NCBI GenBank assembly: GCA_913775025.1
Contig: CAJYJW010000237.1
Coordinates: 1 to 47,276 of the forward strand
Reading direction: 5' to 3'
Source: an uncultured Sphingomonas sp.
GTDB taxonomy: Bacteria > Pseudomonadota > Alphaproteobacteria > Sphingomonadales > Sphingomonadaceae
DNA length: 47,276 bases
Below the pieces are notes generated by a model, which worked only from the letters and a program-made list of their open reading frames with translations, was not told where the DNA came from and ran no database searches. Below, piece after piece: positions 9,325 to 26,318 of the stretch. Position 1 is the first letter of the stretch. Every line of letters starts with the position of its first letter. Position numbers and translations under genes: made by a program.

Positions 9325-9325
9325 C

Positions 9326-11286: not shown

Positions 11287-11290
11287 ATTC

Positions 11291-12220
11291 TCAGTCCAGT
11301 TGCCCGTCGGCCGTCGCGGCGATCTGCGCGCCGGTGGCGAACCCATGCCCCGGCTGCCCGCCAAGCCATCGCAGCAGCCCCTCGAACTCGTTCACGCGAT
11401 AAGGCAGGCCGGTAATGTAGGGCGTAAGGTTCAGCGGCAGCATCCGCCCGCCGCCCGAGGCATCCGCCTCGGCTGACAGCCAGGTGAAGGCGTCGCGGAT
11501 CTGCTCGCAATAGCTGGCCATCGATTGCTGCTGCACGTTCAATATCTGGCGATCGGACAGCTCATGGTTGAGCGGCAGGTTGAGGAGCGGGCCGTGCGCC
11601 GTCGTCATGCGATAGGGCAGATCGTCATTCACCCAGTCGCAGGCATAGGCGAGGCCGGCCTCGGCGAGCAGCGCGGGCGTATCGAACGATTGCGACCGCG
11701 CGATCGACAGCCAGCCCTTCGGCCGCGTACCCGTCACCGTTTCCAGCGTATCTAGGCTTGCGGCAATCATCGCGCGTTCCTCCGCCACCGGCACGCCGGT
11801 CGCGATCGTCGCGTTCATGTCGGTCGCGTGCGCCACGATCTCATGCCCGGCGGCCACGATATCGCGTACCAGCGGCGCATAGCGTTCGGCGATGGCGCTG
11901 TTCATCGCGATACTGGCCTTCGCACCCACCCCGTCCAGCGCATCGAGCAGACGATAGATGCCGACGCGGTTGCCATAGTCGCGCGACGTATAATGGCGAT
12001 AGTCGGGATAGGCCGTCTGCATGTGGCCGGGGGCGAGGAAGGGCTTCGCGTTCGGCGTGATCGGAAACCATTCGAGGTCGATCACGATCCACGTCAGCAC
12101 GCGTTCGCCATGCGGCCAGACGAGCGGCTTGCGCGAGAACAGGTTGGACCAGCGGTACAGGCCGTGATCCATCCCCTCGGCGCGGTGGGCATATTCGAGA
12201 TATCCGGGATCGAGCGTCAT
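11291..12220 (-). CDS. Polysaccharide-deacetylase-fold hydrolase (PuuE / cyclic imide hydrolase-like), copy 1
   Basis: The 309-residue protein has a NodB-type fold but not the sugar-deacetylase signature. The usual TFDD is replaced by VIDLEWF (residues 47-52), and the second motif reads [12 protein letters not shown], with H131. There is no signal peptide, so it is cytoplasmic. This pattern matches the branch that includes PuuE allantoinase and cyclic imide hydrolases, which open cyclic amide or imide rings rather than deacetylate polymers. It is adjacent to and overlaps a paralogue (12217-13110), and the next upstream gene is an amidase. The start at 12220 overlaps the paralogue's stop by four bases. 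Ring-opening function is inferred from family and context. Confidence 0.75.
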
Positions 12221-13110
12221 GCCGCACCCCCCTTCGCCTGCGCGAGATAATGATCGGCGATATCGCCGGATCGGGTGATCCACGCGCGCCCGTCCGCCGC
12301 GATGTGGCGCAGCACTTCCTCGAACGGGCCGATGCGGTGCGGCTGGCCGATCAGATAGCTGTGCAGCGGGATGCACATCACCGTGCCGGAGGCGGCGCCC
12401 TCTTCGGCGAGCCGCTCATATTGCCGGATCAGCGTCTGCGCATATTCGCGCGGGCTCATGTTGTAGATGAAGAAGCCATAATGGTCGTTCACCTCAAGGC
12501 TGTACGGCATGGAGATGAGCTGCCCCTCGCGCGTCGCGACCGGCATCGGCTGATCGTCGTGGTAGAGATCGCACGTATAGGTCATGCCATATTCGGCGAT
12601 GAGGTCGAGCGTGCGTGGCGTGTGCGTCAGCGCGGGGGCGAGCCAGCCCTTGATCGTCTGCCCGGTCGCCTCGCGCACGGTGCGGATCGAATCCTCGATG
12701 ATGTGGCGCTCCTGCGCCTCGTCCATGCCGTAGCTGTAGCGCGTGTTATAGATGCCGTGGCTGAAGAATTCCCAACCAAGCGCATTGGCGTTGGCGACGA
12801 CCTCGGGGATATGCTGGCAGAGCGCCACGGAGAGCGACACCGATCCCTTGAAGCCGTGCTTTTCCATCATCTCGGCCATGCGCCAGTGGCCGACGCGATT
12901 GGCGTAATCGCGGTGCGAATAGCCGACGACATCCGGGTGCGGTTTCGGCCAGCTCGCCCGGTGCGGATTGCGCGGCGGATCGAGCTCATAATATTCCAGG
13001 TTGGGCGAGACCCAGACGGCGACCGTCTTGCCCTCGGGCCAGGCGATCTTCGGCCGGCCGCGATAGGGCAGGTAATCGTAGAGGCCGGGATCGGCTTCGC
13101 CCTCGCGCAT
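12217..13110 (-). CDS. Polysaccharide-deacetylase-fold hydrolase (PuuE / cyclic imide hydrolase-like), copy 2
   Basis: The 297-residue cytoplasmic protein is a diverged paralogue of the next gene. The TFDD motif is replaced by SPNLEYYE (around residues 35-42), and the second motif is WEFFSHGIYNTRY with H118, as in PuuE (SHGWRW-type). A conserved YSHRDYANRVGHWR segment has a counterpart in copy 1 ([14 protein letters not shown]). The ATG at 13110 was preferred over the GTG at 13113 because GGAGG lies seven bases upstream of the ATG; it overlaps the isochorismatase stop as TGATG. Two such enzymes in tandem suggest either two related ring substrates or a heteromer. Polymer deacetylation is unlikely, as there is no secretion signal. 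Confidence 0.75.
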   Translation of the reverse strand: MREGEADPGLYDYLPYRGRPKIAWPEGKTVAVWVSPNLEYYELDPPRNPHRASWPKPHPDVVGYSHRDYANRVGHWRMAEMMEKHGFKGSVSLSVALCQHIPEVVANANALGWEFFSHGIYNTRYSYGMDEAQERHIIEDSIRTVREATGQTIKGWLAPALTHTPRTLDLIAEYGMTYTCDLYHDDQPMPVATREGQLISMPYSLEVNDHYGFFIYNMSPREYAQTLIRQYERLAEEGAASGTVMCIPLHSYLIGQPHRIGPFEEVLRHIAADGRAWITRSGDIADHYLAQAKGGAA

Positions 13111-13790
13111 CACCGCGCCTCCAGCCAGTCGATTACCGTCTGCACCGGCTCCACGTCGGCATATTTGATCGCAAGATCGGTCAGGTTGGCGAAATGGAAG
13201 CTCTCATGCTTGTCAGCGCAGGTCTCGATCGGGACGATCGTGCGGTAGCCGCGCGACAGCGAATCCACCGCCGTCGCCCGAACGCAGCCGGAGGTGGAGC
13301 CGCCCGTCACCACCACCGTATCGACACCGTGATAGACGAGCAGCGACTGCAGCGGCGTCTCGAAGAAGGCGGACGGCATGCGCTTGGTGTAGATGGTGTC
13401 CTTCGGATCGATCTCGCAACGCTCGTCAAAGGCGTGGCGGCGGCTGCCATATTTGATGTTCTGCAGTGAATCGGGCGTGTCGGTGCGCGTGCCCCAAACA
13501 CCGCAATCGGACGCATCCTCGGCGTAGGCGACATGCGTCCAGACGACCGGCATCCCCTTCGCCCGCGCCAGATTCGAGATCGTGTTGGTATATTCGATCT
13601 GGCGCGGATCCGTTTCGTAGGCAGTCGCGAACTCGTCGATGCGGGTATAGGCGCATTGGAAGTCGACGTTCACGATCGCCAGCTTGCGGCCGAAACCGAA
13701 CTTCACCCGGTTGGGCTTGGCGATCGTCTCCTCGAATATCTGGCGCGCGGTCTTGTTGTCGCACACCATCTTCGTGCCGATGCTCGTCAT
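13110..13790 (-). CDS. Isochorismatase-family amidohydrolase (N-carbamoylsarcosine amidase / maleamate amidase-like)
   Basis: The 226-residue cysteine hydrolase has the full Asp-Lys-Cys triad: D43 in AIVNVDFQCAYT, K136 in IYTKRMPSAFF, and C169 in TGGSTSGCVRATAVDS. The TSGCVRATAVDS box is typical of N-carbamoylsarcosine amidase and related C-N hydrolases such as maleamate amidohydrolase and ureidoacrylate amidohydrolase; isochorismatase itself lacks the cysteine. It would hydrolyse a half-amide or carbamoyl group with release of ammonia, which is the step expected after opening of a cyclic imide by the two neighbouring PuuE-like enzymes. Its ATG overlaps the HMGL-like stop by four bases. The exact substrate is unknown. 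Confidence 0.83.
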   Translation of the reverse strand: MTSIGTKMVCDNKTARQIFEETIAKPNRVKFGFGRKLAIVNVDFQCAYTRIDEFATAYETDPRQIEYTNTISNLARAKGMPVVWTHVAYAEDASDCGVWGTRTDTPDSLQNIKYGSRRHAFDERCEIDPKDTIYTKRMPSAFFETPLQSLLVYHGVDTVVVTGGSTSGCVRATAVDSLSRGYRTIVPIETCADKHESFHFANLTDLAIKYADVEPVQTVIDWLEAR

Positions 13791-14752
13791 GCGAACGCTC
13801 CTTCCCTGGTGGTGGCCTTCGGGGTGGCCGGTACGAAACCCAGCGGCAGGCCCGCAAGCGGGGCGAAACCGTACAGCGGCTCGTCGCCCAACGCGGCGGC
13901 AACATGCTCGCGCACCGCGAACAGGCGATCGAGATCGATGCCGGTCCTCACCCCCATCGCCTCGAACATGAAGACGAGATCCTCTGTCACGATATTGCCG
14001 CTCGCCCCCGGCGCGAACGGGCAGCCACCCAGCCCGCCGAGCGAACTGTCGAACGTCGTCAGCCCCGCATCATAAGCGGCGAGCACGTTGGCGAGGCCGA
14101 GGCCGCGCGTATTGTGCAGGTGGATGCCGGTCAGAGCCTCTCGCCCCACCGCGCCCCACAAGGCCGCGATCATCGCCCTCACCGAGGCGGGATCGGCATA
14201 GCCAGTCGTATCGGCGAGACCCACCTCATCGCACCCCGCCGCCATCAGCGATTCCGCCAGGGCCACGACCTTGGCCTGCGGTACATCCCCCTCCAGCGTG
14301 CAGCCGAAGGCGGTCGACAGACTGCCTTCGAAATGCGGGCGCCGGCCTTCGGGCAGCGCGCGGATCATTTCCGCGATCCGCCGCGCATCGTCCAGCACCT
14401 GCGCGTGCGTCTTGCGCAGGTTGGCGAGGCTGTGGGCTTCGCTGCATGAAAGCGGCAGCGTGATCTTGTGCGCGCCTGCCGCCAGCGCATCCGCCGCACC
14501 GCGCGCATTGGGGACGAGGGCGGCGACCGTCAGCCCCGGCAAGGTCGTGGCGTAGCGCACGATTTCCGCCGTATCGGCCAGTTGCGGCAACAGCTTCGGC
14601 GGCACGAAGCTGCCAACTTCGATCTCGGTGATGCCCGCCGCCGCCATCTCGGCGATCCAGGCCTTTTTGGCATCGGTCGACATGATCGGCGCGATGCTCT
14701 GCAAGCCGTCGCGCGGGCCGACCTCACTGATCAAAACGTTCATGGCCGACAT
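13787..14752 (-). CDS. HMG-CoA lyase-like DRE-TIM metallolyase
   Basis: The 321-residue protein has the HMG-CoA lyase hallmarks: EVGPRDGLQ at 10-18 with the catalytic R14-D15, metal ligands in HLHNTRGLGLAN, and the mobile-loop cysteine in GGCPFAPGASGN. Members cleave 3-hydroxy-acyl-CoA tertiary alcohols such as HMG-CoA into acetyl-CoA plus a ketoacid. It is the first gene of the minus-strand operon, and its divergent neighbour is a class III CoA-transferase that could supply the CoA ester. Together they may form an alternative route to the free-acid lyase at 8470. The start at 14752 has AGGTAGG immediately upstream; the in-frame ATG at 14743 is an alternative. The class A operator lies 17 bases upstream. 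Confidence 0.85.
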   Translation of the reverse strand: MSAMNVLISEVGPRDGLQSIAPIMSTDAKKAWIAEMAAAGITEIEVGSFVPPKLLPQLADTAEIVRYATTLPGLTVAALVPNARGAADALAAGAHKITLPLSCSEAHSLANLRKTHAQVLDDARRIAEMIRALPEGRRPHFEGSLSTAFGCTLEGDVPQAKVVALAESLMAAGCDEVGLADTTGYADPASVRAMIAALWGAVGREALTGIHLHNTRGLGLANVLAAYDAGLTTFDSSLGGLGGCPFAPGASGNIVTEDLVFMFEAMGVRTGIDLDRLFAVREHVAAALGDEPLYGFAPLAGLPLGFVPATPKATTREGAFA

Positions 14753-14768
14753 TCCTACCTTGATCCGA

Positions 14769-14790
14769 ATTGTATTGTCTATATACCAAT
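14769..14790. promoter_or_regulatory. Class A operator in divergent promoter: ATTGTATTG-N9-CAAT
   Basis: ATTGTATTG (14769-14777), spacer TCTATATAC, then CAAT (14787-14790) lies in the 74-base gap between the two divergent catabolic operons. On the minus strand, TTGTTT and TACAAT about 18 bases apart could be a promoter for the HMGL operon that overlaps the site. One regulator here could control both directions. The same motif occurs at 6989 and 31149. Confidence 0.6.
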
Positions 14791-14826
14791 TAAAACAAAT
14801 GTGTCGAGGTCGCGGGGGAGCGGGTT

Positions 14827-16050
14827 TTGGGTAACGGATCGGGAAAGCTGCCTCTCGCGGGGATCAAGGTCGTCGAATTCAGCCATATGGTGATGGGGCC
14901 TTCGACCGGCGCGATCCTGGGGGATCTGGGGGCGGACGTGGTGAAGGTGGAGCCGATCGGCGGCGATCATACGCGCCGGCTGCTCGGGTCCGGATCGGGC
15001 TATTTCCCGATGTTCAACCGCAACAAGCGCAGCATCTGCATCGATCTGAAGGATGCGGGCGGGCTGGACGTGGCCAGGCGCCTCGTCAACGGCGCCGACG
15101 TGCTGATCGAGAATTTCAGGCCTGGCGCCCTGGAAAAGCTCGGCCTCGGGCCGGATGCGTTTCAGACGAGCAATCCTGGCCTGATCTATTGCTCCACCAA
15201 GGGCTTTCTCGCCGGTCCGTACGAGCATCGCTCCGCTTTGGACGAGGTGGCGCAGATGATGGGTGGCCTTGCCTATATGACCGGCCCGTCCGGCCGGCCC
15301 CTGCGTGCCGGCGCGTCGGTGATCGACATCACCGGCGGCATGTTCGGCGCGATCGGTATCCTGTCCGCCCTCCTTGCGCGTGGGCGGGATGGCGAGGGCG
15401 CGCTGGTCCGCTCCTCCCTGTTCGAAACGACCGCTTATATGGTCGGTCAGCACATGGCGCAGATGGGCGTCACCGGCCAAGCCGCACGCCCGATGCCGGA
15501 ACGTATCTCCGCCTGGGCGATCTACGATGTGTTCGAGACGGCCGATCCGTCGGAACTGCTGTTCGTCGGCGTCGTCAGCGACGGGCAGTGGCGCAACTTC
15601 GTGGAGGCCTTCGACCTGGGCGAGATCGGGCGCGATCCCCGCTTCACCACCAATAACGAGCGCGTGCTGGCACGCGACACGATCCTGCCGGTGGTACGCA
15701 AGATCATGGGCGAGCATAGCCGCGCCGCGTTGCTGGAGCGGCTGGAAAAGGCGGGCGTCGCGTTCGCACCGATAGCCCGGCCGGAGGATCTGTTCGACGA
15801 TCCGCACCTGAACGCCAACGGCGGGCTGGTCGATCTGACGCTGGACGACGGCCGGCCCATCCGCCTGCCCGCACTGCCTCTGGAGATCGACGGCGCGATT
15901 CCCGGCGTGCGGCACGATCTGCCCCGTGCCGGCGGCGATACGGAAGCGGTGCTGCGCGATTTCGGTTTCGCCGAGCCGGAGGTGTCGGCGCTGCTGGCGG
16001 GCGGGTCGATCGCATCGACCGCCACGGCCGGGGCACGGGCGGCGTCGTGA
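14827..16050 (+). CDS. Class III CoA-transferase (CaiB/BaiF family)
   Basis: The 407-residue protein has the family I-to-III boundary motifs LAGIKVVEFSHMVMGPSTGAI, NRNKRSICIDLK and ADVLIENFRPG, and the catalytic aspartate in RSALDEVAQMMGG (D139). Such enzymes move CoA between carboxylic acids, e.g. succinyl-CoA:citramalate or itaconate CoA-transferases. The predicted start is TTG at 14827, preceded at seven bases by GGGGAG. It opens the plus-strand operon, and its stop overlaps the next LeuC-like gene as GTGA. Context suggests activation of a hydroxy-dicarboxylate for the divergent HMGL-like lyase. The substrate acid and CoA donor cannot be read from sequence. Confidence 0.87.
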   Translation: MGNGSGKLPLAGIKVVEFSHMVMGPSTGAILGDLGADVVKVEPIGGDHTRRLLGSGSGYFPMFNRNKRSICIDLKDAGGLDVARRLVNGADVLIENFRPGALEKLGLGPDAFQTSNPGLIYCSTKGFLAGPYEHRSALDEVAQMMGGLAYMTGPSGRPLRAGASVIDITGGMFGAIGILSALLARGRDGEGALVRSSLFETTAYMVGQHMAQMGVTGQAARPMPERISAWAIYDVFETADPSELLFVGVVSDGQWRNFVEAFDLGEIGRDPRFTTNNERVLARDTILPVVRKIMGEHSRAALLERLEKAGVAFAPIARPEDLFDDPHLNANGGLVDLTLDDGRPIRLPALPLEIDGAIPGVRHDLPRAGGDTEAVLRDFGFAEPEVSALLAGGSIASTATAGARAAS

Positions 16051-17489
16051 CGCTCACCGCCGCCGCAGCTATCCGGCCGCCCCGCACGCTGGCGGACGCG
16101 ATCTGGAACACGCACGTCGTCGCCGCGATTGACGCGCAGACTGACCTCATCGCGCTCGACCGGCTTCTCCTGCATGAGCGGACCGGCGGCGTGGCGCTAA
16201 AAAGCCTCGACGATGCCGGCCGCACGGTGGCGGCGCCCGCGCAGGTATTCGCGACGATGGACCATATCGTCGATACGTTCACCGGGCGCAGCGACGATAC
16301 GCTGATGCCGACCGGCAAGGCCTTCCTGACGACGATGCGCGAGGGCGCGCGCAAGCATGGCATCACCCTGTTTGATCTGCACGACCCACGGCAGGGCATC
16401 GTCCATGTCATCTCGCCCGAGCAGGGCATCGTCCTCCCCGGTCTCACGCTCGCCTGCCCGGACAGCCACACCTGTACGCAGGGCGCGTTCGGCGCGATCG
16501 CCTGGGGCATCGGATCGACCGAGGCGGAGCATGCGCTGGCGACGATGACGCTCCGTGTCGAGCGGCCGCAGGACATGCGGATCACGATCGACGGCGAACT
16601 GGGGACGGGCGTCACACCCAAGGATCTGGCGCTGCACATCATCCGACGGCTGGGTTCGGGGGGCGCGAAGCGGCATATCGTCGAGTTCACCGGGTCGGCC
16701 GTCCGCGCGCTCGACATGGAAGGGCGCATGACGCTCTGCAACATGGCCACCGAACTCGCCGCCTTCGGCGCGATCATCGCACCGGACGAGACGACTTTCG
16801 CCTATCTGAAGGGTCGCCCGTTCGCGCCTGCCGGTGCGCAGTGGGAGGCCGCGGTGGCGCAATGGCGCACGCTGGCGACGGAAGACGGCGCACCCTTCGC
16901 CGCCGAGCATCACTTCGATGCCGCGCAGGTCGCCCCAATGATTACCTGGGGCACCAGCCCGCAGCACGGCATGCCGCTCGACATGGCCGTGCCCTTCTTC
17001 GAGGCGCTGGACGGGGCGACCGGCCGCGCGGACTATGATCGCGCGGTCGCCTATATGGACGTGACACCGGGCGCGCGGCTGGAGGGGGTGCCGATCGACG
17101 CCGCCTTCATCGGCTCCTGCACCAACAGCCGCGTCTCCGATCTCCGCCGCGCCGCCGCGATCCTGAAGGGGCGGAAGGTGGCGGCCGGCGTGCGGGCGAT
17201 CTGCGTGCCGGGATCGACACAGGTGAAGCGCGACGCGGAAGCCGAGGGGCTGGACGCGATCTTCCGTATGGCGGGGTTCGAATGGCGCGAGGCCGGCTGC
17301 TCGATGTGCTTCTACGCCGGGGGCGAAAGTTTCGGCGCGCAGCAGCGCGTCGTCAGTTCCACCAACCGCAATTTCGAGAGCCGGCAGGGGCCGGGCACGC
17401 GCACGCACATCGCCTCGCCCGAAACGGTCGCCGCCTCCGCCATCGCCGGCGCGATCGCCGACCCCCGCCGCTTGGAGGCACTGCCATGA
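16047..17489 (+). CDS. Aconitase-family hydro-lyase large subunit (LeuC-like), copy 2
   Basis: The 480-residue subunit has iron-sulfur ligands C358 (GSCTNSRVSDLR), C418 and C421 (AGCSMC), and a C-terminal SSTNRNFESRQGPGTRTH. It differs from copy 1 at core positions: PDSHTCTQGAFGAIAWGIGS replaces [19 protein letters not shown]. It has an N-terminal extension of about ten residues and insertions, so the two copies are not a recent duplication. The GTG start overlaps the CoA-transferase stop by four bases and its stop overlaps the LeuD-like gene by four. It probably hydrates or isomerises a different unsaturated dicarboxylic or tricarboxylic acid from copy 1. Confidence 0.86.
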   Translation: MTLTAAAAIRPPRTLADAIWNTHVVAAIDAQTDLIALDRLLLHERTGGVALKSLDDAGRTVAAPAQVFATMDHIVDTFTGRSDDTLMPTGKAFLTTMREGARKHGITLFDLHDPRQGIVHVISPEQGIVLPGLTLACPDSHTCTQGAFGAIAWGIGSTEAEHALATMTLRVERPQDMRITIDGELGTGVTPKDLALHIIRRLGSGGAKRHIVEFTGSAVRALDMEGRMTLCNMATELAAFGAIIAPDETTFAYLKGRPFAPAGAQWEAAVAQWRTLATEDGAPFAAEHHFDAAQVAPMITWGTSPQHGMPLDMAVPFFEALDGATGRADYDRAVAYMDVTPGARLEGVPIDAAFIGSCTNSRVSDLRRAAAILKGRKVAAGVRAICVPGSTQVKRDAEAEGLDAIFRMAGFEWREAGCSMCFYAGGESFGAQQRVVSSTNRNFESRQGPGTRTHIASPETVAASAIAGAIADPRRLEALP

Positions 17490-18100
17490 CGCCTCTCGTC
17501 CGGCTGCAATCGCGCGCGGCGCCTTTGATGCGCGACAATATCGATACCGACGCGATCATCCCCTCGCGCGAGATGAAGGCGGTGTCGAAGACGGGGCTGG
17601 CCGACGGCCTGTTCGCCGGCTGGCGTTACCGCACGGTCGGCGGGCGCGATCCCGACCCCGCCTTCGTGTTGAACGACCCGCGCTATGCGAACGCGCATAT
17701 CCTCGTCGCCGGCGCGAACTTCGGTTGCGGCTCCAGCCGTGAGCATGCGGTGTGGGCGTTGGCTGAATATGGCTTGCGCGTGATCATCGCCCCATCGTTC
17801 AGCCCGATCTTTCAGGGCAACTGCATCCGCAACGGCGTGGCGCCGGTGGTGCTGCCCGCCGATGCGGTGATCGCACTGGCCGTGCTGGTAGGCGCTGACG
17901 AGGCCGTGACGGTCGATCTGAAGACGATGACGGTTTCGGCTGCCGGCCAGGAGTGGTCGTTCGCGCTCGACGACGAAGCACGAATGATGCTGATGGAGGG
18001 CCTCGACGCGATCGAGCTGACGCGCAAGCGGCAGGCCGAGATCACAGCCTTTCGCGCCGCCGACGCCGCCGCCCGGCCATGGGTATATCTGCAGAAATAA
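17486..18100 (+). CDS. Aconitase-family hydro-lyase small subunit (LeuD-like), copy 2
   Basis: The 204-residue partner of the preceding large subunit has the LeuD motifs [17 protein letters not shown] and FSPIFQGNCIRNGV. The active-site loop DAIIPSREMKAVSKTGLADG differs from both copy 1 and standard LeuD. The start ATG at 17486 overlaps the LeuC-like stop by four bases, and TGGAGG lies eight bases upstream. A longer open frame beginning inside the LeuC-like gene is rejected. It ends this sub-operon; the 97-base gap after it holds a possible second promoter. Confidence 0.85.
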   Translation: MTPLVRLQSRAAPLMRDNIDTDAIIPSREMKAVSKTGLADGLFAGWRYRTVGGRDPDPAFVLNDPRYANAHILVAGANFGCGSSREHAVWALAEYGLRVIIAPSFSPIFQGNCIRNGVAPVVLPADAVIALAVLVGADEAVTVDLKTMTVSAAGQEWSFALDDEARMMLMEGLDAIELTRKRQAEITAFRAADAAARPWVYLQK

Positions 18101-18197: not shown

Positions 18198-19094
18198 GTG
18201 ACGCTTCTGAAATGTGCGACGCATGTGGTCGCAGACGTCGATGCCGCCGTCGTGCGCTACAGTCGCGAACTGGATTACACGCTGGTCGAAAAAGGCCGCG
18301 TGCCGGATGACCTCGCCGCCGCGTGGAGCGCGCCGGCCAGCGCCGGGCGCGCTTATGCCGTCCTGCAACCCGCCTCCGGCACGCCGGTGTTCCTGCGCTT
18401 CATCGCCGGTGATCCCGTGCCCGATTACAAGCCGATCCGCACCAACGGCTGGGCCGCGATCGAAATCTGCGTACAGGATGTCGAGGTCGTCAACGAACGC
18501 ATGATCGCCTCGGCCGATTTCGAGGTCATCGGCAGGCCGAAGCCGCTCGACGGCTTTCCGACCGTCAAGCCGATGCAGGTACGCGGGCCGGATCAGGAAA
18601 CCGTCTACCTCACCGAGATCAGCACGAGCGATCCGGCGAGCGGCCTGCCGGTGCCCACCTCGCTGGTGGACCGGCCGTTCATCATGGTGCTCGCCTGCCC
18701 CGATCTGCCGGCCACGATGGCATGGATGCGTGACGTGCTGGGCCTCGATGTGACGGAGCCGGTGTCGATCCGCTATTCGATGATCCAGCTCGCCTTCGGG
18801 CTCGATACGGAGGAGAAGACGCCGCTCTGCCTCGCGCGGTGGAACGGCCAGACCTTCCTCGAACTCGATCAATATCCGGTCGACGTCACGCCGCGTACCG
18901 CCCACCCCGGCGCGCTGCCGCCCGGCGTTTCGATCGTCACGATGATGCATCCCGATATCGCCCGGCTGGATGGGCATTGGGCCTCGCCGCCGGTCGTGCG
19001 GGACGGGCCGTTGTACGGTGGCCGCCGCGCCGGCGTTCTGAAAACGCCCGAGGGCGCGCTGCTTGAGGTCGTCGAGGGCGGACCGATCGGCTGA
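18198..19094 (+). CDS. VOC-fold (glyoxalase/dioxygenase superfamily) two-domain protein
   Basis: The 298-residue protein reads as two beta-alpha-beta-beta-beta modules (about 1-125 and 145-295), the vicinal-oxygen-chelate fold. The first begins CATHVVADVDAAVVRYSRELDY, the second RPFIMVLACPDLPATMAWMRDVLGL. H9 and the glutamates in AAIEICV and VYLTEI could be metal ligands in the first module; the second module lacks an obvious N-terminal histidine, so any metal site may be incomplete. Members include extradiol dioxygenases, glyoxalases, epimerases and binding proteins, and the function cannot be chosen here. The GTG start has AAGGGG about seven bases upstream. It is followed after 29 bases by an alpha/beta-hydrolase-fold gene. 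Confidence 0.75.
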   Translation: MTLLKCATHVVADVDAAVVRYSRELDYTLVEKGRVPDDLAAAWSAPASAGRAYAVLQPASGTPVFLRFIAGDPVPDYKPIRTNGWAAIEICVQDVEVVNERMIASADFEVIGRPKPLDGFPTVKPMQVRGPDQETVYLTEISTSDPASGLPVPTSLVDRPFIMVLACPDLPATMAWMRDVLGLDVTEPVSIRYSMIQLAFGLDTEEKTPLCLARWNGQTFLELDQYPVDVTPRTAHPGALPPGVSIVTMMHPDIARLDGHWASPPVVRDGPLYGGRRAGVLKTPEGALLEVVEGGPIG

Positions 19095-19123: not shown

Positions 19124-19963
19124 ATGACCACGATCAAGCGCGGCTTCGCGGATGCCGCCCACGGCCAGATGCACTATCGCCACGCGGGTGAGGGAAAAGG
19201 CACGCCGCTGCTGATGTTGCACGCCTCCCCCGGAAGCTCGCGCCAGCTCGTCAAGCTGATCGGCGAGTTCGCCCGGACACACCATGTGCTCTCGCCCGAT
19301 ACGCCGGGCAACGGCGACAGCCTGGCTTTGTCGGCCGAGGAGCCGACGATCGTCGATCTCGCGGGCGCGATGCAGCGCTTCCTCGATGCGGTCCGGGTGG
19401 ATCGGGTCGATCTGTACGGATCGCACACGGGGGCGGCGATCGCCGCCGAACTGGCGATCCTCGCGCCCGATCGGATCAATAGCGTGGTGCTGGACGGCGT
19501 CAGCATGATGAAGGGCGAGGAGCTGGCGGACGTGCTGGCGAACTACGCCTTCCCGTTCCCGGCGGATCGCGAGGGCGCCTATCTGGCGCGCGTGTTCCAA
19601 TTCTGCCGCGACCAGTATCTCTTCTTCCCCTGGTACAACCGCACCCGCGCCGGGCGACGCGACAATGCGCTGGGTGCCACGGCGGACATCCATGCCTGGG
19701 TGGTCGAGGTACTCAAGGCGAACGAAACCTATCACCTCAATTATCGCGCCGCCTTCAAATGGGATGCCGAGGCGCGCCTGCCGCTCGTCACCCGGCCAAG
19801 CTTGCTGACGGCGGCGGAGAACGATCCGTTGCTGGACAGCACGGAGGCGCTGGCGGCGATGCTGCCGGACAGCCGCTACGTCCGCCTGCCGCGCTTCGAC
19901 GCGCCGGATTTCGCAGGCGCGCGCGCCGCCGCGATGCGTGCCTTCTTCGCCGATCACGACTGA
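19124..19963 (+). CDS. Alpha/beta-hydrolase-fold protein with His at the nucleophile position
   Basis: The 279-residue protein has the fold's oxyanion region LMLHASPGSSRQ (30-41), the DTPGNGDS turn (59-66) and a nucleophile elbow reading LYGSHTGAAIAAEL. Aligned to the canonical GHSMGG pattern, the nucleophile position is H101 instead of serine. The usual C-terminal catalytic histidine is also not evident (RLPRFDAPDFAGAR). The tandem protein at 24547-26265 shares the same HT signature (ATHTSAKIA). This looks like a subfamily with altered chemistry, perhaps a C-C or C-N lyase or a non-hydrolytic role, rather than a normal esterase. It lies between the VOC gene and a gene of unknown function in the same operon. 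Confidence 0.78.
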   Translation: MTTIKRGFADAAHGQMHYRHAGEGKGTPLLMLHASPGSSRQLVKLIGEFARTHHVLSPDTPGNGDSLALSAEEPTIVDLAGAMQRFLDAVRVDRVDLYGSHTGAAIAAELAILAPDRINSVVLDGVSMMKGEELADVLANYAFPFPADREGAYLARVFQFCRDQYLFFPWYNRTRAGRRDNALGATADIHAWVVEVLKANETYHLNYRAAFKWDAEARLPLVTRPSLLTAAENDPLLDSTEALAAMLPDSRYVRLPRFDAPDFAGARAAAMRAFFADHD

Positions 19964-19986: not shown

Positions 19987-20706
19987 ATGATGAAGCACAG
20001 GACGATCAGCGGGAAGATCCTCTACACATCGCGCAAGCCGGGCCGCGAAGGCCAGGAGCGCGGTCGCGAGCTGTTCACCTTCACCGTGCATGGCGACGGC
20101 AGCCGCACGATGCGTGCGATGTGCGAGATCGACGAGCCGGATCCCACGGTGCTGCGCGATATCGTCTACAGCCTCGATGCCAACGACATGCCGACGGATT
20201 GCTTCGTACGCCTGACGGTGGGCGACGAATTCATGGGCGCCGGCCTGTTCCGCATCGCGGACGGCTATGTCGAATGCGAAAGCTTTGGCCCCACGATCGG
20301 CCGCGTATCGCAGAAGGTGCCGTTCGGCGGCGTCTTCGATGGCTTCGGCACGCACCCGATCGCGGGCGATGCGTACATCACCAAGAAGATGGACAAGTCG
20401 AAGGGACCGCATGCGCGCAAGTTCCGCACCTTCCTCCCCTCCCCCGACCATCGCGGCGCGACGCCGCCGATCATTGCCGAGACGAGCCTGACGCTCGCCT
20501 ATGTGGGCGACGAGACGGTAACGGTGGCGGCGGGCACGTTCGAGGCCTCGCACTACAAGTTCACCGACCCCGAGGCATCGATGGCGGGCGGCCACCCGGA
20601 GTATAACGTCTGGGTCACGGCCGACGAGGACGCCATCTTCCTGAAGGGCGGCGTCGATGGTTACATGATGACCTGGTACGAGCTGGTCGAACTCAAGCGA
20701 GTGTAA
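19987..20706 (+). CDS. Conserved protein of unknown function, 239 residues
   Basis: I do not recognise this family. The protein is soluble, without signal peptide or membrane segments, and looks beta-rich, with stretches such as ISGKILYTSRKPG, FTFTVHGDGSRTMRAM, VRLTVGDEFMGAGLF, GYVECESFGPTIG and NVWVTADEDAIFLKG. It resembles the lipocalin-like or DUF3108-like beta-barrel style, but only in general composition. An AGGAG lies 11 bases upstream of the first ATG (19987); the second ATG at 19990 is also possible. It is the last gene of the plus-strand operon and is followed by a strong hairpin terminator. Confidence 0.65.
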   Translation: MMKHRTISGKILYTSRKPGREGQERGRELFTFTVHGDGSRTMRAMCEIDEPDPTVLRDIVYSLDANDMPTDCFVRLTVGDEFMGAGLFRIADGYVECESFGPTIGRVSQKVPFGGVFDGFGTHPIAGDAYITKKMDKSKGPHARKFRTFLPSPDHRGATPPIIAETSLTLAYVGDETVTVAAGTFEASHYKFTDPEASMAGGHPEYNVWVTADEDAIFLKGGVDGYMMTWYELVELKRV

Positions 20707-20771: not shown

Positions 20772-21587
20772 TTAGAACGGCGCGGTGCCGCTCCACGGGC
20801 GGGACCATTCCGCAGGCGTGCCGGCGGGGATCTTCGGCGCATAGGCCTGCCCGATCGGCAACGGCATCGGCTCGGTCCAAATCGTGCGGACGTAGTTGGC
20901 ACCCGCGCGCATGATCTGGAAGAAGCCCGCCTCCGATACGTGCGGCCCGTGGACGATTTCCGGCGGGCGATAGAAATAGGCACCGGGGCGGATCAGCCCC
21001 TCGGGCGTCCACATCTCCCCCTGCAACATGAACATCTCCTCGAAATGGTCATGGATCTCCGCCGGCATGGCCTTTTGCGCGGGCATGCCGTGCGGCAGGC
21101 CGATCAGCAGGAAGGTCCGCGAACTGTCGTTTGGGCCGAGCCGCAGCACCTTCCGCGCCAGCCGCAGGTGGGCGATATGCGCGACGCTGGGGGCCATGTC
21201 CCACGGGATCGTCGCCGGATCGAGCGCGAGAGCCTCGGTTGCGCCGGCCGCGCTGTTGGGGTCGGTGCGGCCGTAGCGGAACACGATCAGGGTCGCGCCG
21301 CCCTGCGTCGTGCGGGTGCCCGCGCTCACGCCGCGCGGCGTGAAGCCATAGCCGTGATAGCGCTGCTCGCGATCGCCGATAACGATGCTGCCGTCGAGCA
21401 CGAGATACTCCTCCGCCCGATCCTCCGGCCCCCGATCCGGGCTATCGAAGCCGGCCGGATAGCGGATGAGATACGTCTCCTCGCCATCGACGGGATCGAT
21501 GTTCAGGCGCTTGATCGCAGTGCCGTCTGGCTGGATCACCCAATCGACGTTCTGCGTCTGGACGAATTCGATATAGGGACGCGCCAT
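20772..21587 (-). CDS. Bicupin protein of unknown function
   Basis: The 271-residue protein reads as two cupin modules. The first (about 60-120) includes RAEEYLVLDGSIVIGDREQRYHG. The second (about 175-245) includes HDHFEEMFMLQGEMWTPEG and GAYFYRPPEIVHGPH, with the HxH...E...H metal-ligand pattern, so the second module probably binds a metal. It could be a dioxygenase, isomerase or sensor-like cupin; it does not look like gentisate dioxygenase. It is the last gene of the minus-strand operon, three bases after the FAD-oxidase gene, and probably acts on or after that enzyme's product. Confidence 0.72.
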   Translation of the reverse strand: MARPYIEFVQTQNVDWVIQPDGTAIKRLNIDPVDGEETYLIRYPAGFDSPDRGPEDRAEEYLVLDGSIVIGDREQRYHGYGFTPRGVSAGTRTTQGGATLIVFRYGRTDPNSAAGATEALALDPATIPWDMAPSVAHIAHLRLARKVLRLGPNDSSRTFLLIGLPHGMPAQKAMPAEIHDHFEEMFMLQGEMWTPEGLIRPGAYFYRPPEIVHGPHVSEAGFFQIMRAGANYVRTIWTEPMPLPIGQAYAPKIPAGTPAEWSRPWSGTAPF

Positions 21588-21590
21588 CGG

Positions 21591-23198
21591 TCAGCCCTCC
21601 AGCCCGAGCGCGCCGGGATTGACGCGATTGTCCGGGTCCACCAGCCGCTTGATCCCTTCCAGCAGCGCGCGGGATTCGGGCCGCATCACTTGCGCATAAG
21701 GGTAGGTGCGGCCAATCTGGTTCGATTGCGCGCCCATCCCGGCGAACAGCGCGATAAGCTCGCCCCGCACCTGCATCACCAGCGCGCGGGCCTCGTCGTT
21801 CGCCGCCGGCTCCGCCACCCGCGCGCGCATCCCCGCGCTTGTGGAGGCATGGTGCATCGGCAGCCAGCTGTCATGCCAGTTGAACACCGGCTCGTAGCTG
21901 AAGACGTGGTTGGAGATCACCGTCAGCAACCGTGAGACGACGACGCGTTTCGCATCCAGCGCCGGCTGGTGCCGCGCGATCAGCGCCTCCACCGCATCGA
22001 CCAGCGCCTTGGCATCGCCGTGCGCCACCTTGGCGTTGAGCGCGATCCAGCGATCGCCCGTCTGCCCCAGCACCGCATCGAGGGGCGAATAGGGATCCGC
22101 CCGCCCCGCCTTCGGGATCGAGTTAGGCAGTTCCCTGCCCCCCGCTTTCGCCACGATCGCGCGGGCAAGCGCCATGTCGCCCTCCACCGCCTCGCGCGTG
22201 CGGCCCGCCAGCACCATGTGGAGCGAATGGCACCCCGCCTCGATGAAATCGCGCCCGGCCATCGCCAGTTGCGCGCCTGCCTTCAGCCCGCGCAACAGCC
22301 CCTTCTCCTGCGAGACGACCTTCATCAGCGTCTTCGCGTCGCGGACAAGATCGGTCGGCCCGCCGAGCGCCTGCCGGGTCTTGTCCGGATCCATCATGTA
22401 GCAATCCTCGGCCAGCTCGGATCGGCCGATCTCGCACAGCGTCTCGACCGCGACATCGCGATCGTCGAAGCCGAAGGAGAGGTAATCGGTGAAGGCTGGC
22501 GCGCGGATCATGCGCAGCGTGACGATGCCCTTGATGCCGAGCGCGCCCGCATCGTGCGTGAACAAACCGGTGGTGTCCGGCCCGAAGGTGCGGGTGAATG
22601 ATCGGTCGGCCGCAGGGAACGCCGTCTGCCCGGTATGCAGGATCGCGCCGTCCGCCAGCACCACCTGCATCCCCAGCACGATCTCCGCCGAAGTACCGTA
22701 GCGCGCGGTGCCGAGGAAAAGCGCGCCGTTCGACAGGCCCCCGCCGACCGTCGCCCCCCTGCCCGAAAAGGTGCCGAAGAACGGCAGGCGCAGGCCGAGC
22801 GGCTTCAGCGCATCGTAGAGCTGCATCCACGTGACGCCCGCCTCGACCGTCACCAGCATATCCCGCTCGCTGATATCAAGGATGCGGTTCATCCGCCGCA
22901 TGTCGACCGCGATCGCGCCGGCTTGCTCCGCGACATAGCCGTGCACGTAGGTCAGCCCACCGCCGCGCGGCAGCAGCGCCAGCCCCGCCGCCGCGATGAT
23001 GCGCGTGGCGGCGCTCAACTGCTCGATCGAGGCGGGGCGGATGACGGCGGCGACCAGACCGCCCGCGCCGAACAGGTCGGCCGAATGGTTGCGCCGGCTC
23101 TCCTCGTCGTGGAGCAACCCTTCCGACCCGAGCAGGCCATGCAGGCGGGCGATCAGGGTTTCGGTGCCCGCCGTGGGTGCGACTGCTTCATCGATCAT
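21591..23198 (-). CDS. FAD-linked oxidase/dehydrogenase (VAO family, FAD_binding_4)
   Basis: The 535-residue flavoprotein has the PCMH-type FAD domain at about 55-260, with LLPRGGGLTYVHGY, DISERDMLVTVEAGVTW and GRGATVGGGLSNGALFLG, and a C-terminal cap ending in KRLVDPDNRVNPGALG, the FAD-oxidase C-terminal motif. This layout is that of the D-lactate/glycolate/2-hydroxyglutarate dehydrogenase and 4-cresol or vanillyl-alcohol oxidase group. It would oxidise a 2-hydroxy acid or an activated C-H or alcohol. No signal peptide is seen. The start ATG overlaps the MFS gene's stop by four bases, so the transporter's substrate may be acted on directly by this enzyme. The substrate is not predictable. 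Confidence 0.84.
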   Translation of the reverse strand: MIDEAVAPTAGTETLIARLHGLLGSEGLLHDEESRRNHSADLFGAGGLVAAVIRPASIEQLSAATRIIAAAGLALLPRGGGLTYVHGYVAEQAGAIAVDMRRMNRILDISERDMLVTVEAGVTWMQLYDALKPLGLRLPFFGTFSGRGATVGGGLSNGALFLGTARYGTSAEIVLGMQVVLADGAILHTGQTAFPAADRSFTRTFGPDTTGLFTHDAGALGIKGIVTLRMIRAPAFTDYLSFGFDDRDVAVETLCEIGRSELAEDCYMMDPDKTRQALGGPTDLVRDAKTLMKVVSQEKGLLRGLKAGAQLAMAGRDFIEAGCHSLHMVLAGRTREAVEGDMALARAIVAKAGGRELPNSIPKAGRADPYSPLDAVLGQTGDRWIALNAKVAHGDAKALVDAVEALIARHQPALDAKRVVVSRLLTVISNHVFSYEPVFNWHDSWLPMHHASTSAGMRARVAEPAANDEARALVMQVRGELIALFAGMGAQSNQIGRTYPYAQVMRPESRALLEGIKRLVDPDNRVNPGALGLEG

Positions 23199-24550
23199 CG
23201 GCTTTCCCTCTCGCCATTCGCCCGTGCCGCCTCGCGAAACGCCTTGCGGCCGGACGCCAGGACGGCGGCGGCGGCGAGGCCGAACGCGAAGAACACGAAG
23301 CCGAGCGCAAACTTGATGCCGCCCGGCTGGTTGAAGATCGTGTCGGACAGGAAGCCGACAATGAAATTGCCCGCCGTCAGCGCGATCAGGCCCGAACAAA
23401 TCGTGTGGAGCGCCATCACCTGCCCGCGCATCTCGTTCGGCGCGATCAGCGAGATGCCGGAATAGACCGCCGAGATGTTCCAGTTCACGAACAGCGCGTT
23501 CACCGCATAGCAGGCGAGCGCGATCGCGCCGGACGGGGCGAGGCAGCCGAGCGTGCCGAATACCACCATCGACAGGCCGCATACCGTCGCGGCGATCAGC
23601 GGCGCATCGATATGGCCGCGGCGCGTCAGCCAAGCGATCACCCAGCCGCTGTTGATCGCGGCGAAGGTGCTGATCGGCACGCCGACCGCGCCCAGCGCAT
23701 AGCCGGTTTGCGCCGGCGTCCAGCCATGCGCGCGGATGAAGAGGGCGGGGAACCAGCCGACGATCGCATAGACGCACACGAGGTTGAGCACCGTGCCGAC
23801 GATCAGCGCGCCGAATGCGTGCGGCCGGGAGTGGAACAGCGCGATGATCGGGCGCAGGCTGAACCCTCGCGCCGCCGAGACTACGCCGTGCCGGCGCGGC
23901 TCGCGTACAGACAGGAGGACGATACCGGCAAGCACGATCCCCGGCGCGCCGCACAGCACGAACACCGCCTGCCACGCGGCCATCCCGCGAAAGACGGGAA
24001 CGGTCGCGATCAGCCGATCCGCCCAGCTAAGGAACAGGCCGGACAGCGCGAAGGCCGCCCCAGTGCCAAGCGAGCTGCCCATCACGAAGACGCCGTAAGC
24101 CTTGGGCCGGGCGACGGGGTTGAAATAGTCCGCGATCAGCGAGGTGGCGACCGGCACCAGCGCCGCCTCGCCCACGCCGACCAGCATCCGTGCCAGGAAC
24201 AATTGCGGGAAGGTCGCCGCCAGCGCGCAGCCGATCGTCGCGAGGCTCCAGAGAGTCAGCCCGCCGATCAGCACCGTCACGCGACGGGACCGATCGCAAA
24301 CCATGCCGAGCGGCAGGCCGAGCACCGAATAGCAGATGCTGAACGCCATCCCCTGCAACAGGCCGAATTGCGTATCGTTGATCTTCAGCGCGGCCTGCAG
24401 CGGCGTGATGAGCAGGCTGATCGATACGCGATCGAGGATTGCCAGCGCATAGGCGAGCGTGAGGCAGGCGACGACATACCAGGCGTAGCGCCGTGCGGGC
24501 CAGGCGGGGGCCGCGCCCTCGGCCGGCATCTGGGTGGCCACGGCCCTCAC
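23195..24550 (-). CDS. MFS transporter, Spinster/ACS-like, 12 membrane segments
   Basis: The 451-residue inner-membrane transporter begins YAWYVVACLTLAYALAILDRVSISLLI, the N-terminal motif common to Spinster-like and anion:cation symporter MFS proteins, with a loop 2-3 motif LGMVCDRSRRVTVL and EAALVPVATSLIADYF. Twelve hydrophobic segments can be traced. It probably imports an organic acid or aromatic-type substrate with protons. The GTG at 24550 was chosen because it overlaps the preceding stop as GTGA, like most junctions in this cluster; the ATG at 24529 is an alternative that shortens it by seven residues. Confidence 0.86.
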   Translation of the reverse strand: MRAVATQMPAEGAAPAWPARRYAWYVVACLTLAYALAILDRVSISLLITPLQAALKINDTQFGLLQGMAFSICYSVLGLPLGMVCDRSRRVTVLIGGLTLWSLATIGCALAATFPQLFLARMLVGVGEAALVPVATSLIADYFNPVARPKAYGVFVMGSSLGTGAAFALSGLFLSWADRLIATVPVFRGMAAWQAVFVLCGAPGIVLAGIVLLSVREPRRHGVVSAARGFSLRPIIALFHSRPHAFGALIVGTVLNLVCVYAIVGWFPALFIRAHGWTPAQTGYALGAVGVPISTFAAINSGWVIAWLTRRGHIDAPLIAATVCGLSMVVFGTLGCLAPSGAIALACYAVNALFVNWNISAVYSGISLIAPNEMRGQVMALHTICSGLIALTAGNFIVGFLSDTIFNQPGGIKFALGFVFFAFGLAAAAVLASGRKAFREAARANGERESR

Positions 24551-26265
24551 AGCGCGTCGATCTCGTGGCGCGCGTCCGGCGTGAATTCTACATCGGCGGT
24601 ATCCAGGAAACGCACGACATGCGGAACCATCCCGTCGATGCCGGCGCTTCGTATCGCCATTCGGGCATCCGGCAGCCTGTCCGCGACAGCAGCGGCGGCA
24701 CGATCGCCCGGATCGTCGAGGGCATGGAGAATCAACGTGGGCTGACCGAAGACAGGGTAGCGCGTCTCCGCCCCCGCCCGCAGCGCGGCGCATGCCATGT
24801 CGCCGTAGGATCGGGGCTGCTTGAGGATGGCGACGAGCGCCGGATGCAATGCCGTGGCGGAGAGCGTCGGCAAGAGAGGGCGTTGCGCCGCGACCGATCC
24901 ATCGAACCACGGCCACTGCGCCTCCCCGTCGCGCAGCATGTGCCAGATGCCTTGCAGGTGCCCGCCCGCCCGATCGAAGCCGATCGGGGGGCAAAGCGTC
25001 TCGGCCAGATCGAGCCGCTCATCGTCGGCGATCGTGAAGCATCCGTCGAGAATGACGCGCCCGACCTTGCCGCCATGCCGGGCGGCGAAGGTGGCGGCCA
25101 GCGGCGTCGCATAGCCGAGGCCGAGCAGGTCGACCCGGTCGTGGCCCAGCGCATCGAGCATCGCGGCCAGCGCATCGGCCGCCGCCTCCAGCGACGGTTC
25201 GCCCAACGGGTCGGACTCACCATAGCCCGGCAGATCGGGAACGAGCGTGGCCCGATCATCGAGCGCCGCCTGCCACTGGCGTGCGTGCATGGTCGTCGGC
25301 GTATCAAGGATAAGGAGTGGGCAAGCCGTGCCCGGCCCGGCCCGGCGCACGAGCATTTGCCCGTGCGGCAGATCGACATAGGCGGCTGCGGCCTCCGCCG
25401 ACGCCAACGGCTCCGCCCGCACCTCCGCCGCCGCGAGCATGTCAGCCAGCCATGCGAACCATGCCTCGCCGTCGGCCGGCAACCGCATCACCGTCAGTGC
25501 GTCGTTTTCCGCTGTTGGAACGCGCTCCAGCGAGCCGAAGAGCACGTCGTCCGCGCGAGCCGCGACGACGACGGGGCAGCGCACGGCGTGCAACGCCGGC
25601 ATCGGATCGTATCGCATCGCCGCTGCATAAGCGGATGCGTAATGCGGCCCGGCGGACAGGAAATCGACGATATAGTCCGCGATCCAGTTATCGCTCTGCA
25701 TCGGCACGGGCATGCGGGCGGCCGGCGTCTGGCTGAACCAGGGAAACCAGCGCAGCATGTCGCGCATCCGCGTCCATTCGGCGGCCAGATAACCGCCGGC
25801 ATCATCCAGCCGGAACGGGCGCATGTAGGCGGCGATGAACGCCTCGTCGGGCGGCCCTGCGGGGATCGACAGCCCGTCGAGGATCAGCCGGGGCGGACGG
25901 CCGTGATGCGTGGCATAGTCCAGCGCGATCTTGGCGCTGGTGTGGGTGGCGTAAAGCGGCACGTCGGCAAGGCCCATCGCCGCTAGCGTCCGCCCCAGCA
26001 TGGCGGCGAAATCCGTAATCGTCGGCTCGGGCTGCCCCAGCGGATCGGAATTGCCGTAACCGGGCGTATCGAGCGCGTAGACGCGATAGCGTTTCGCCAG
26101 CCGCGCCATCGTGTCGAGATGCAGCCGCGAGGAGCGGGGCGAATCATGCAGCATCACCACCGCCGGTCCGTCACCGGCCACGCGATAGTGGACAAGCTGC
26201 CCATCGACCGTAGCGAACCCTTTACGCACGACAGGCCCGGGCGATGGTATCGTCTTCGATGTCAT
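24547..26265 (-). CDS. Tandem alpha/beta-hydrolase-fold protein, both nucleophile elbows altered
   Basis: The 572-residue protein contains two alpha/beta-hydrolase domains. Domain 1 (about 15-280) has VVMLHDSPRSSRLH, DTPGYGNSDPLG and an elbow LYATHTSAKIAL in which H108 takes the nucleophile place. Domain 2 (about 290-560) has LLILDTPTTMHARQ, DLPGYGESDPLG and an elbow LLGLGYATPLA with glycine (G384) at that place. Neither has a clear catalytic histidine near its C-terminus. Domain 1 shares the HT signature with the protein at 19124-19963. It is the first gene of its operon, and a 34-bp class B operator lies 53 bases upstream. Function unknown; simple esterase activity is doubtful. Confidence 0.75.
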   Translation of the reverse strand: MTSKTIPSPGPVVRKGFATVDGQLVHYRVAGDGPAVVMLHDSPRSSRLHLDTMARLAKRYRVYALDTPGYGNSDPLGQPEPTITDFAAMLGRTLAAMGLADVPLYATHTSAKIALDYATHHGRPPRLILDGLSIPAGPPDEAFIAAYMRPFRLDDAGGYLAAEWTRMRDMLRWFPWFSQTPAARMPVPMQSDNWIADYIVDFLSAGPHYASAYAAAMRYDPMPALHAVRCPVVVAARADDVLFGSLERVPTAENDALTVMRLPADGEAWFAWLADMLAAAEVRAEPLASAEAAAAYVDLPHGQMLVRRAGPGTACPLLILDTPTTMHARQWQAALDDRATLVPDLPGYGESDPLGEPSLEAAADALAAMLDALGHDRVDLLGLGYATPLAATFAARHGGKVGRVILDGCFTIADDERLDLAETLCPPIGFDRAGGHLQGIWHMLRDGEAQWPWFDGSVAAQRPLLPTLSATALHPALVAILKQPRSYGDMACAALRAGAETRYPVFGQPTLILHALDDPGDRAAAAVADRLPDARMAIRSAGIDGMVPHVVRFLDTADVEFTPDARHEIDAL

Positions 26266-26318
26266 AGAGCCGCGTTCCCGCCAGGCTTCGCATCGACCCG
26301 CACGAAGGGACTTGCGTC

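Follow-up and report, generated by a model that had tools for sequence, protein, structure and literature searches.

What does a protein of the alpha/beta-hydrolase fold do with a histidine at the position of its catalytic nucleophile? This question is raised by an open reading frame in a contig of an uncultured Sphingomonas sp. (CAJYJW010000237.1; the whole stretch of 47,276 nucleotides is called the window here). Translated on the forward strand from the ATG at 19124 to the stop at 19963, the frame gives 279 residues, and its elbow reads L97-Y98-G99-S100-H101-T102-G103-A104-A105-I106-A107.

19124..19963, + strand: HT-elbow alpha/beta-hydrolase-fold protein (P0001), 279 residues, from the open reading frame, Pfam, conservation, and model
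19421..19429, + strand: codons of S100-H101-T102 in the nucleophile elbow, numbered from the ATG at 19124

Fold and placement of the elbow histidine

The window protein belongs to the fold by its match to Pfam Abhydrolase_1 (PF00561; 64.5 bits against a cut-off of 25.8), and among the NCBIfam profiles no model came near its own cut-off for it. Its AlphaFold model, made from a 21-row alignment, has a mean pLDDT of 88.3 and a pTM of 0.89, with block means of 96 for residues 91–100 and 95 for residues 101–110, the oxyanion loop being the least certain part (block mean of 70 for residues 31–40). Among the best 50 of 1000 structure matches, the model aligned along its length with alpha/beta-hydrolase structures at Z scores of up to 28.3, this value coming from the enol-lactonase 2xua (rmsd of 2.4 with 246 residues aligned). 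Full-length structural matches were also given by 3om8 and by many esterases and dehalogenases (best 50 of 1796 and best 50 of 1000). Judged by molecule names and a few alignments, there was no HT-elbow structure from the PDB among the best 60 of 111, 50 of 1796, 50 of 1000, 60 of 347, and 60 of 256 matches.

In the model, H101 is predicted to lie between strand 95–100 and helix 102–113. In a HMMER alignment with a haloalkane dehalogenase, the histidine of the family profile falls on the Asp nucleophile, T102 pairs with the Trp that follows it, and S35 pairs with the HGNP-loop Asn; in haloalkane dehalogenase, this Trp and this Asn bind the halide. An earlier note on this DNA had assigned the histidine to the nucleophile position and had proposed structure prediction as a check, and the assignment is supported by the strand and helix that flank H101 in the model and by the family-wide conservation of this residue. 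The predicted placement of H101 in the nucleophile elbow, for which sequence alignment and the secondary structure of the model provide the basis, holds. As regards origin, the one PHROG match of the protein is to a general esterase/lipase family (49.4 bits), and a phage source was rejected, with tblastn giving no hit among 50,697 phage records.

Conservation of the His-Thr pair

Homologues with 52–81% identity are found at 20 loci of other genomes, and in the alignment of the 21 close rows (A1), H101 and T102 are invariant (21/21), as are, among others, H33, S35, P36, S38, S39, Y98, C161-R162-D163-Q164, D234, and D259. Kept in a diverse set of 29 rows reaching down to 31% identity (A3) are H17, H33, S35, P36, S39, D59, G64, S66, Y98, H101, T102, G125, P169, and Y207, while D234 and D259 are not universal there. 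Across the best loci of three genome searches, HT occurs in at least one domain in 65 of the 75 distinct frames with an aligned elbow, these frames being the top-scoring loci of HT-based profile searches and so biased towards HT, not an unbiased census. In the ten frames lacking HT, Ala stands for the His in three and for the Thr in one; the other six have an Asp elbow and the lowest scores (92–96 bits). Four members of the HT branch (L072, L077, L078, and L101) carry Ala for the elbow His or Thr, natural variants that are possible pointers to which residue matters.

Column by column, position 101 is H in all 45 HT rows (29 from A3 plus 16 picked by motif, which makes the 45/45 partly circular), as against D in eight and S in seven of 15 Ser/Asp rows (ten own-genome rows, L084, and L094–L097), and position 102 is T in 45/45 and 0/15 of these, respectively. 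Eight of the 45 are HHT rows, with GHHTG-like elbows, and 37 are HT rows. Chance is excluded because the pair is invariant in close homologues, and a random mutation or sequencing error is ruled out by the 21/21 invariance and the 65 of 75 frames. The earlier note had taken HT to be a conserved subfamily feature and had asked for an alignment of homologues; the close rows, the 75 frames, the single branch described below, and domain 1 of a tandem protein in the window all agree with it. When 28 own-genome Abhydrolase_1 matches, some of them pieces of one gene, were scanned crudely for the motif, HT turned up only in that tandem protein, the scan having taken the wrong frame for the window gene (L119) and seen no elbow in some other matches.

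Phylogeny and distribution

In a tree of 58 rows, the 45 HT rows stand apart from 13 own-genome Ser/Asp proteins with support of 100/99, and the sources of the eight HHT rows include Streptomyces, Rhodococcus, and Novosphingobium. With elbow columns 98–105 removed and the nearest non-HT rows added, a quick tree (midpoint root, no bootstrap, ten of the 13 Ser/Asp rows, with L121, L123, and L133 left out) gave a 49-row branch with an SH-aLRT of 97 that held all 45 HT rows and four rows in which H or T is lost, five Asp-elbow rows falling outside. HT does not fill exactly one side of a branch in this tree and takes four changes, three of them forced by starred branches. Since the elbow-free tree groups the HT rows, the pair looks like a single old gain with few later losses. 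By its HT elbow, its lack of a beta-8 histidine, and its position on a supported branch, the window protein is assigned from these alignments to what we name here the HT-elbow branch.

Counted as genomes with a match, not as genomes with an HT protein, the A1 search (E ≤ 1e-25) hit 68 of 396 genomes of the order, and the A3 search hit 32 of 385 genomes of the class and 11 of 398 genomes of the phylum, at least five of those 11 via an Asp-elbow protein (L094–L098). Close orthologues (E ≤ 1e-100) are patchy, being present in 3 of 59 relatives with the own genome counted, and the named carriers include Sphingomonas, Novosphingobium, Sphingobium, Altererythrobacter, Variovorax, Comamonas, Azospirillum, and Antarctobacter. 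Among them are two sphingomonads with the gene island described below, Novosphingobium resinovorum (L002) and Sphingobium boeckii (L011).

Missing catalytic histidine and pocket residues

The column after strand beta-8, which usually holds the catalytic histidine, has His in 13 of the 15 Ser/Asp rows and in none of the 45 HT rows, 37 of which are gapped there. Some histidine lies elsewhere in the C-terminal region in 17 of the 45, with at most five in any one column, and H278, the second-to-last residue, is common to four of the 21 close rows (window, L001, L010, and L019). What had been read from the single sequence, namely that no C-terminal catalytic histidine is visible, therefore extends to the compared rows. 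As a general stand-in for the lost histidine, D259 was considered and rejected, this residue being invariant in A1 and not kept outside the close clade. The HT branch is a deep branch in which the covalent Ser/Asp and the C-terminal catalytic His are both absent and His-Thr occupies the elbow.

Among the 37 rows of the HT subgroup, Y207 is present in 37, Y98 in 35, and S35 in 34, with Asp at position 234 in 28 and at position 124 in 25. S35 becomes N, A, or G in three of the 37 and A in one of the eight HHT rows, most of which have Thr at position 35, and H101-T102 is kept in all four substituted rows; Y98, moreover, is replaced by V or A in the eight HHT rows. The pocket is not uniform, because S35 and Y98 are substituted in rows that keep H101-T102.

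Comparison with known alpha/beta hydrolases

Serine and cysteine hydrolases of this fold have Ser or Cys at the elbow, where the window protein and all 21 close rows have H101, and a beta-8 catalytic His, found in 0/45 HT rows. The Asp-nucleophile enzymes (haloalkane dehalogenases and soluble epoxide hydrolases) share the fold and align strongly over the N-terminal half, elbow on elbow, and Asp-elbow proteins rank directly behind the HT branch among the best loci of the searches. These enzymes, however, have an Asp nucleophile and a C-terminal His, and the HT protein has neither, only His-Thr. The C–C hydrolases and enol-lactonases of the BphD/PcaD type, which carry a Ser-His-Asp triad, are among the top sequence and fold matches (best 60 of 111 and best 50 of 1796) at about 20% identity, yet the scores lie far under the NCBIfam cut-offs (TIGR02427, 58.9 against 255.85; NF051488, 67.8 against 390; TIGR03343, 33.5 against 462.15). 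NDRG proteins lack the elbow serine, and we know of no conserved His-Thr in nucleophile-less members of the fold of the NDRG or CGI-58 type; the Pfam Ndr match of the window protein (21 bits) is below the cut-off of 23.3.

The cofactor-free dioxygenases HOD, QDO, and AqdC have the same fold, act on N-heterocycles, and are described as catalysing without an elbow nucleophile (PMC10548524). They do rely on a beta-8 His with an Asp, and this His lacks a counterpart in the HT protein, there being no His in that column. CGI-58 is without an elbow Ser (PMC11878206, section 2.7). An elbow histidine is not among the active-site variants described in that section, which comprise Ser, Asp, Cys, Ser-less D/E-H dyads, and CGI-58. 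A search of titles and abstract openings for a histidine elbow in this fold, with subscription papers outside its scope, gave mostly off-topic results and no such paper.

The tandem HT protein

24547..26265, − strand: tandem HT protein, domain 1 with an HT elbow (H108-T109 counted from the start at 26265) and domain 2 with a Gly elbow, from Pfam, orthologue alignment, and model

The frame of this gene spans 24547–26325, with 26265 as the likely start. Its domain 1 elbow reads LYATHTSA, and HT is present in 13/13 orthologues, so that the recurrence of the elbow in this protein, already pointed out from the sequence, proves general among them; the elbow of domain 2 carries Gly in 13/13. The tandem model has a mean pLDDT of 85.6 and a pTM of 0.86. 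Domain 2 keeps an invariant R445, D446, W451, P452, and W453, a set similar to the R-D...F-P-W stretch in the HT cap. The reversed order, with HT in domain 2, is seen in L104 and L106 (Azospirillum lipoferum and Rhizorhabdus wittichii). The pairing of an HT domain with one that lacks a nucleophile, whichever comes first, suggests a pseudo-dimer. Possibly, the domain 2 cap serves the domain 1 pocket.

Gene neighbourhood

The genes flanking the HT gene are listed below, together with the source of each name.

7299..8432, − strand: zinc-type alcohol dehydrogenase (Pfam, NCBIfam)
8470..9399, − strand: PEP-mutase/isocitrate-lyase-family lyase (best NCBIfam model prpB, below cut-off)
9913..11364, − strand: second LeuC-type large subunit (over the ordinary leuC cut-off)
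11291..12376, − strand: second PuuE-type polysaccharide-deacetylase-fold protein (Pfam; PuuE match below cut-off)
12217..13113, − strand: PuuE/HpPgdA-type polysaccharide-deacetylase-fold protein, cyclic-imidase-like (Pfam, PDB; below PuuE cut-off)
13110..13790, − strand: isochorismatase-fold amidase candidate (Pfam; N-carbamoylsarcosine amidohydrolases in the PDB)
13787..14752, − strand: HMG-CoA-lyase-like protein (NF004283, over cut-off)
14779..15915, − strand: CaiB/BaiF-type CoA-transferase candidate (name from the gene in the same place on pJE1; no Pfam or NCBIfam match here)
16047..17489, + strand: LeuC-type hydratase large subunit (NCBIfam, neighbourhood comparison)
17483..18100, + strand: LeuD-type hydratase small subunit (Pfam, NCBIfam, neighbourhood comparison)
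18198..19094, + strand: VOC-like protein, directly upstream of the HT gene (named by inspection; no Pfam or NCBIfam match)
20032..20706, + strand: DUF3108-like protein, directly downstream of the HT gene (pJE1 gene in the same order named DUF3108; no Pfam match here)
20772..21587, − strand: cupin protein, ChrR cupin-like (Pfam)
21591..23225, − strand: FAD_binding_4 oxidase (Pfam; the family recurs beside distant HT genes)

This island (7299–27659) looks like a catabolic one for a cyclic-imide or alkylmaleate route, and it also holds an MFS gene and the tandem HT gene. Both PuuE-type proteins hit PuuE allantoinase with scores short of the equivalog cut-off, and one of them matches HpPgdA (3qbu), to which the cyclic imidase HxnM is structurally related; HxnM is related to PuuE as well (PMC9304392). 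For the isochorismatase-fold protein, the nearest PDB entries are isochorismatase-family proteins without a specific name, followed by N-carbamoylsarcosine amidohydrolase, and for the lyase at 8470..9399 the best PDB match is 4iqd (annotated as phosphorylmutase), followed by methylisocitrate-lyase-type and 2,3-dimethylmalate-lyase entries. The second LeuC may have a role in leucine synthesis, since it scores over the ordinary leuC cut-off. No paper on the gene island was found by title or abstract opening, the results being mostly off-topic and subscription papers lying outside the scope.

In stretches of about 17 kb around 20 close HT genes, the VOC-like gene is found at 18 loci, the DUF3108-like gene at 19, the full tandem HT gene at 12, the FAD oxidase (at least 60% identity) at 12, the cupin at 11, and the isochorismatase-fold and PuuE-type genes together at 11. 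The LeuC/LeuD pair lies beside the HT gene at six of the 20 and the HMG-CoA-lyase-like gene at five, counts that are low partly from the short stretches. Named copies of the island are on the plasmids pJE1 and pTomTYG65b. Near the island on sphingomonad plasmids, there is also a HapK-like gene (L085, 32099–32419; PF11639, a family with a prodigiosin-type name), and L088 has a hypothetical gene in the same place.

For more distant HT genes, we compared 40 stretches of 3.7–20 kb (genome G727 giving two, and L175 being a fairly close relative at 59%) with 20 control stretches, all of 20 kb and from long contigs. Homologues of the HMG-CoA-lyase-like protein were present in ten of the 40, LeuD2 in nine, CaiB in nine, LeuC2 in eight, isochorismatase in six, and the two polysaccharide deacetylases in four (PDA1) and three (PDA2), each with 0/20 in the controls. 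FAD oxidases (12; FADox 3, AziFAD 9), AMP-binding enzymes (7), amidohydrolases (6), acyl-CoA dehydrogenases (6), and VOC proteins (6) were also absent from the controls, and TonB was found in 13 of the 40 against two of the 20. HT genes are therefore statistically linked to imidase-, amidase-, hydratase-, and lyase-like genes. Of the 40 stretches, 15 contain a homologue of at least one hydratase, lyase, CoA-transferase, imidase, or amidase and 12 contain an FAD oxidase, with one or the other in 24. None of the proposed partners occurs in the other 16, the isocitrate-lyase-type lyase and the cupin are found in 0/40, and the zinc dehydrogenase and LeuC1 in 1/40, so that a single branch-wide pathway is not established. 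A Comamonas plasmid carries an isochorismatase gene and two genes for polysaccharide deacetylases after its HT gene, and the genes near a tandem HT gene on Azospirillum AZO_p2 include one for an FAD oxidase, an aconitase/isopropylmalate-dehydratase pair, and one of the isocitrate-lyase/PEP-mutase type. A second recurring neighbourhood (L147, L148, L157, and L173) has homologues of an amidohydrolase, an AMP-binding enzyme, and an FAD_binding_4-type oxidase, and perhaps belongs to a different substrate.

Putative mechanism

We tentatively favor, at a little short of an even chance, the view that the HT-elbow branch is a real enzyme family that would form no acyl-enzyme and would use H101 as a general acid/base in ring C–N or C–C cleavage or in tautomerization. 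H101 would deprotonate water or the substrate, T102 and an oxyanion-loop hydroxyl (S35, or Thr in most HHT rows) would hold a carbonyl or enolate, and the compound cleaved or tautomerized would be a nitrogen-containing ring. General acid/base catalysis by H101 is the simplest reading. The usual covalent catalysis is unlikely, because a catalytic-type His and an invariant acid at position 124 or 234 are both missing, and the strict conservation of the pocket makes a dead scaffold hard to accept. HOD, which has this fold and can do without its elbow residue, works by base catalysis, so the fold can operate with a base alone (PMC10548524). Against acid/base catalysis by H101 are the lack of a visible invariant acid partner, unlike in HOD, and the four branch members with His or Thr changed to Ala. 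Probably, the HT-branch proteins use chemistry so far undescribed for this fold.

An acyl-enzyme would still be formed if the dyad were swapped, with H101 as the base and the nucleophile in the oxyanion loop (S35, or S38/S39). A hydroxyl residue is indeed found at position 38 in 45/45 rows and at position 35 in 41/45, the latter position aligning with the HGNP-loop Asn of haloalkane dehalogenase, but four of the rows with HT have N, A, or G at residue 35, and position 38 is Ser/Thr in 7 of the 15 ordinary rows and just before helix 40–50, which suggests a structural role; we consider this arrangement rather unlikely. A pseudoenzyme, that is, a binding, chaperone, or regulatory protein of the pathway, would account for the absent Ser-His-Asp triad and for the Gly elbow of tandem domain 2 (13/13), and it has a precedent of the same fold in the serine-less CGI-58 (PMC11878206, section 2.7). 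The retention of H101-T102 and pocket residues across the diverse set goes beyond the needs of a scaffold, however, and tandem domain 2, having lost HT, is variable around the elbow, so this reading too seems unlikely. Quite unlikely is a cofactor-free dioxygenase-like enzyme with its general base shifted from the beta-8 loop to the elbow. In favor of it, HOD has the same fold and acts on N-heteroaromatics by means of a His-Asp base, its elbow Ser being dispensable (PMC10548524), and the island has amidase- and imidase-like genes, but the HOD histidine has no counterpart in any of the 45 rows. Foldseek gave mostly hydrolases in its best 50 of 1796 matches, and the absence of HOD among these excludes nothing.

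That H101 itself becomes acylated or alkylated as a covalent nucleophile is suggested by its position, but it is very unlikely, as neither a second catalytic-type His nor an invariant acid at 124 or 234 is there to activate it, and no such case is among those in section 2.7 of PMC11878206. A metal site made up of H17, H33, and H101 together with D59 would draw on the conservation of H17 and D59 (45/45) and of H33 (43/45) in the HT and HHT rows; yet H33 and D59 are also kept in 14 and 13 of the 15 ordinary Ser/Asp rows and so are probably structural, which leaves this site highly improbable. The conserved H17 and D59 do leave room for alternative arrangements around H101. An ordinary serine hydrolase with S100 as the nucleophile, which had been named at the outset as the case that could overturn the histidine reading, can be given hardly any credence. 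S100 adjoins H101, but there is no catalytic-type C-terminal His, and the candidate fails on conservation, with Ser at position 100 in 7/45 rows (T18, F9, S7, M1, I1, and Y1 in the HT rows, and H7 and V1 in the HHT rows).

Proposed pathway and implications

With H101 acting as a general acid/base, the HT step would be followed by the PuuE-type imidases and the isochorismatase-type amidase, which would release nitrogen, and by the LeuCD-type hydratases, the CoA-transferase, and the HMG-CoA-lyase-like or isocitrate-lyase-family enzyme, which would cut a branched dicarboxylate into pyruvate and an acyl unit. We infer from the gene content a route from cyclic imide to alkylmaleate and on to pyruvate plus an acyl unit, which the LeuCD-type hydratases and the HMG-CoA-lyase-like protein would complete, as well as the step at which the HT enzyme would act. 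A wider proposal, possible though somewhat unlikely, is that the branch represents a new catalytic class of alpha/beta hydrolases, with the elbow His-Thr replacing the whole triad, and that it serves a so far undescribed sphingomonad route in which alkyl-maleimide-like nitrogen rings (derived, e.g., from pigments of the pyrrole or tetrapyrrole kind) are opened and converted via alkylmaleate into pyruvate and acyl-CoA. No paper linking tetrapyrrole or maleimide substrates to these genes was found by title or abstract opening, subscription papers being outside the scope. The HapK-like gene on pJE1 is a weak hint for the tetrapyrrole/maleimide idea.

In the plasmid annotations examined, these proteins are called 'alpha/beta hydrolase' or 'hypothetical protein', the former name being unsupported by the active site. 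The island provides a concrete set of partner enzymes for finding the HT substrate. The alpha/beta-hydrolase fold is the textbook case of one machine, Ser/Asp/Cys-His-acid, serving many reactions, and a wide branch that has neither nucleophile nor catalytic His but a strict His-Thr in the same position would, if true, add one more way of using the fold.
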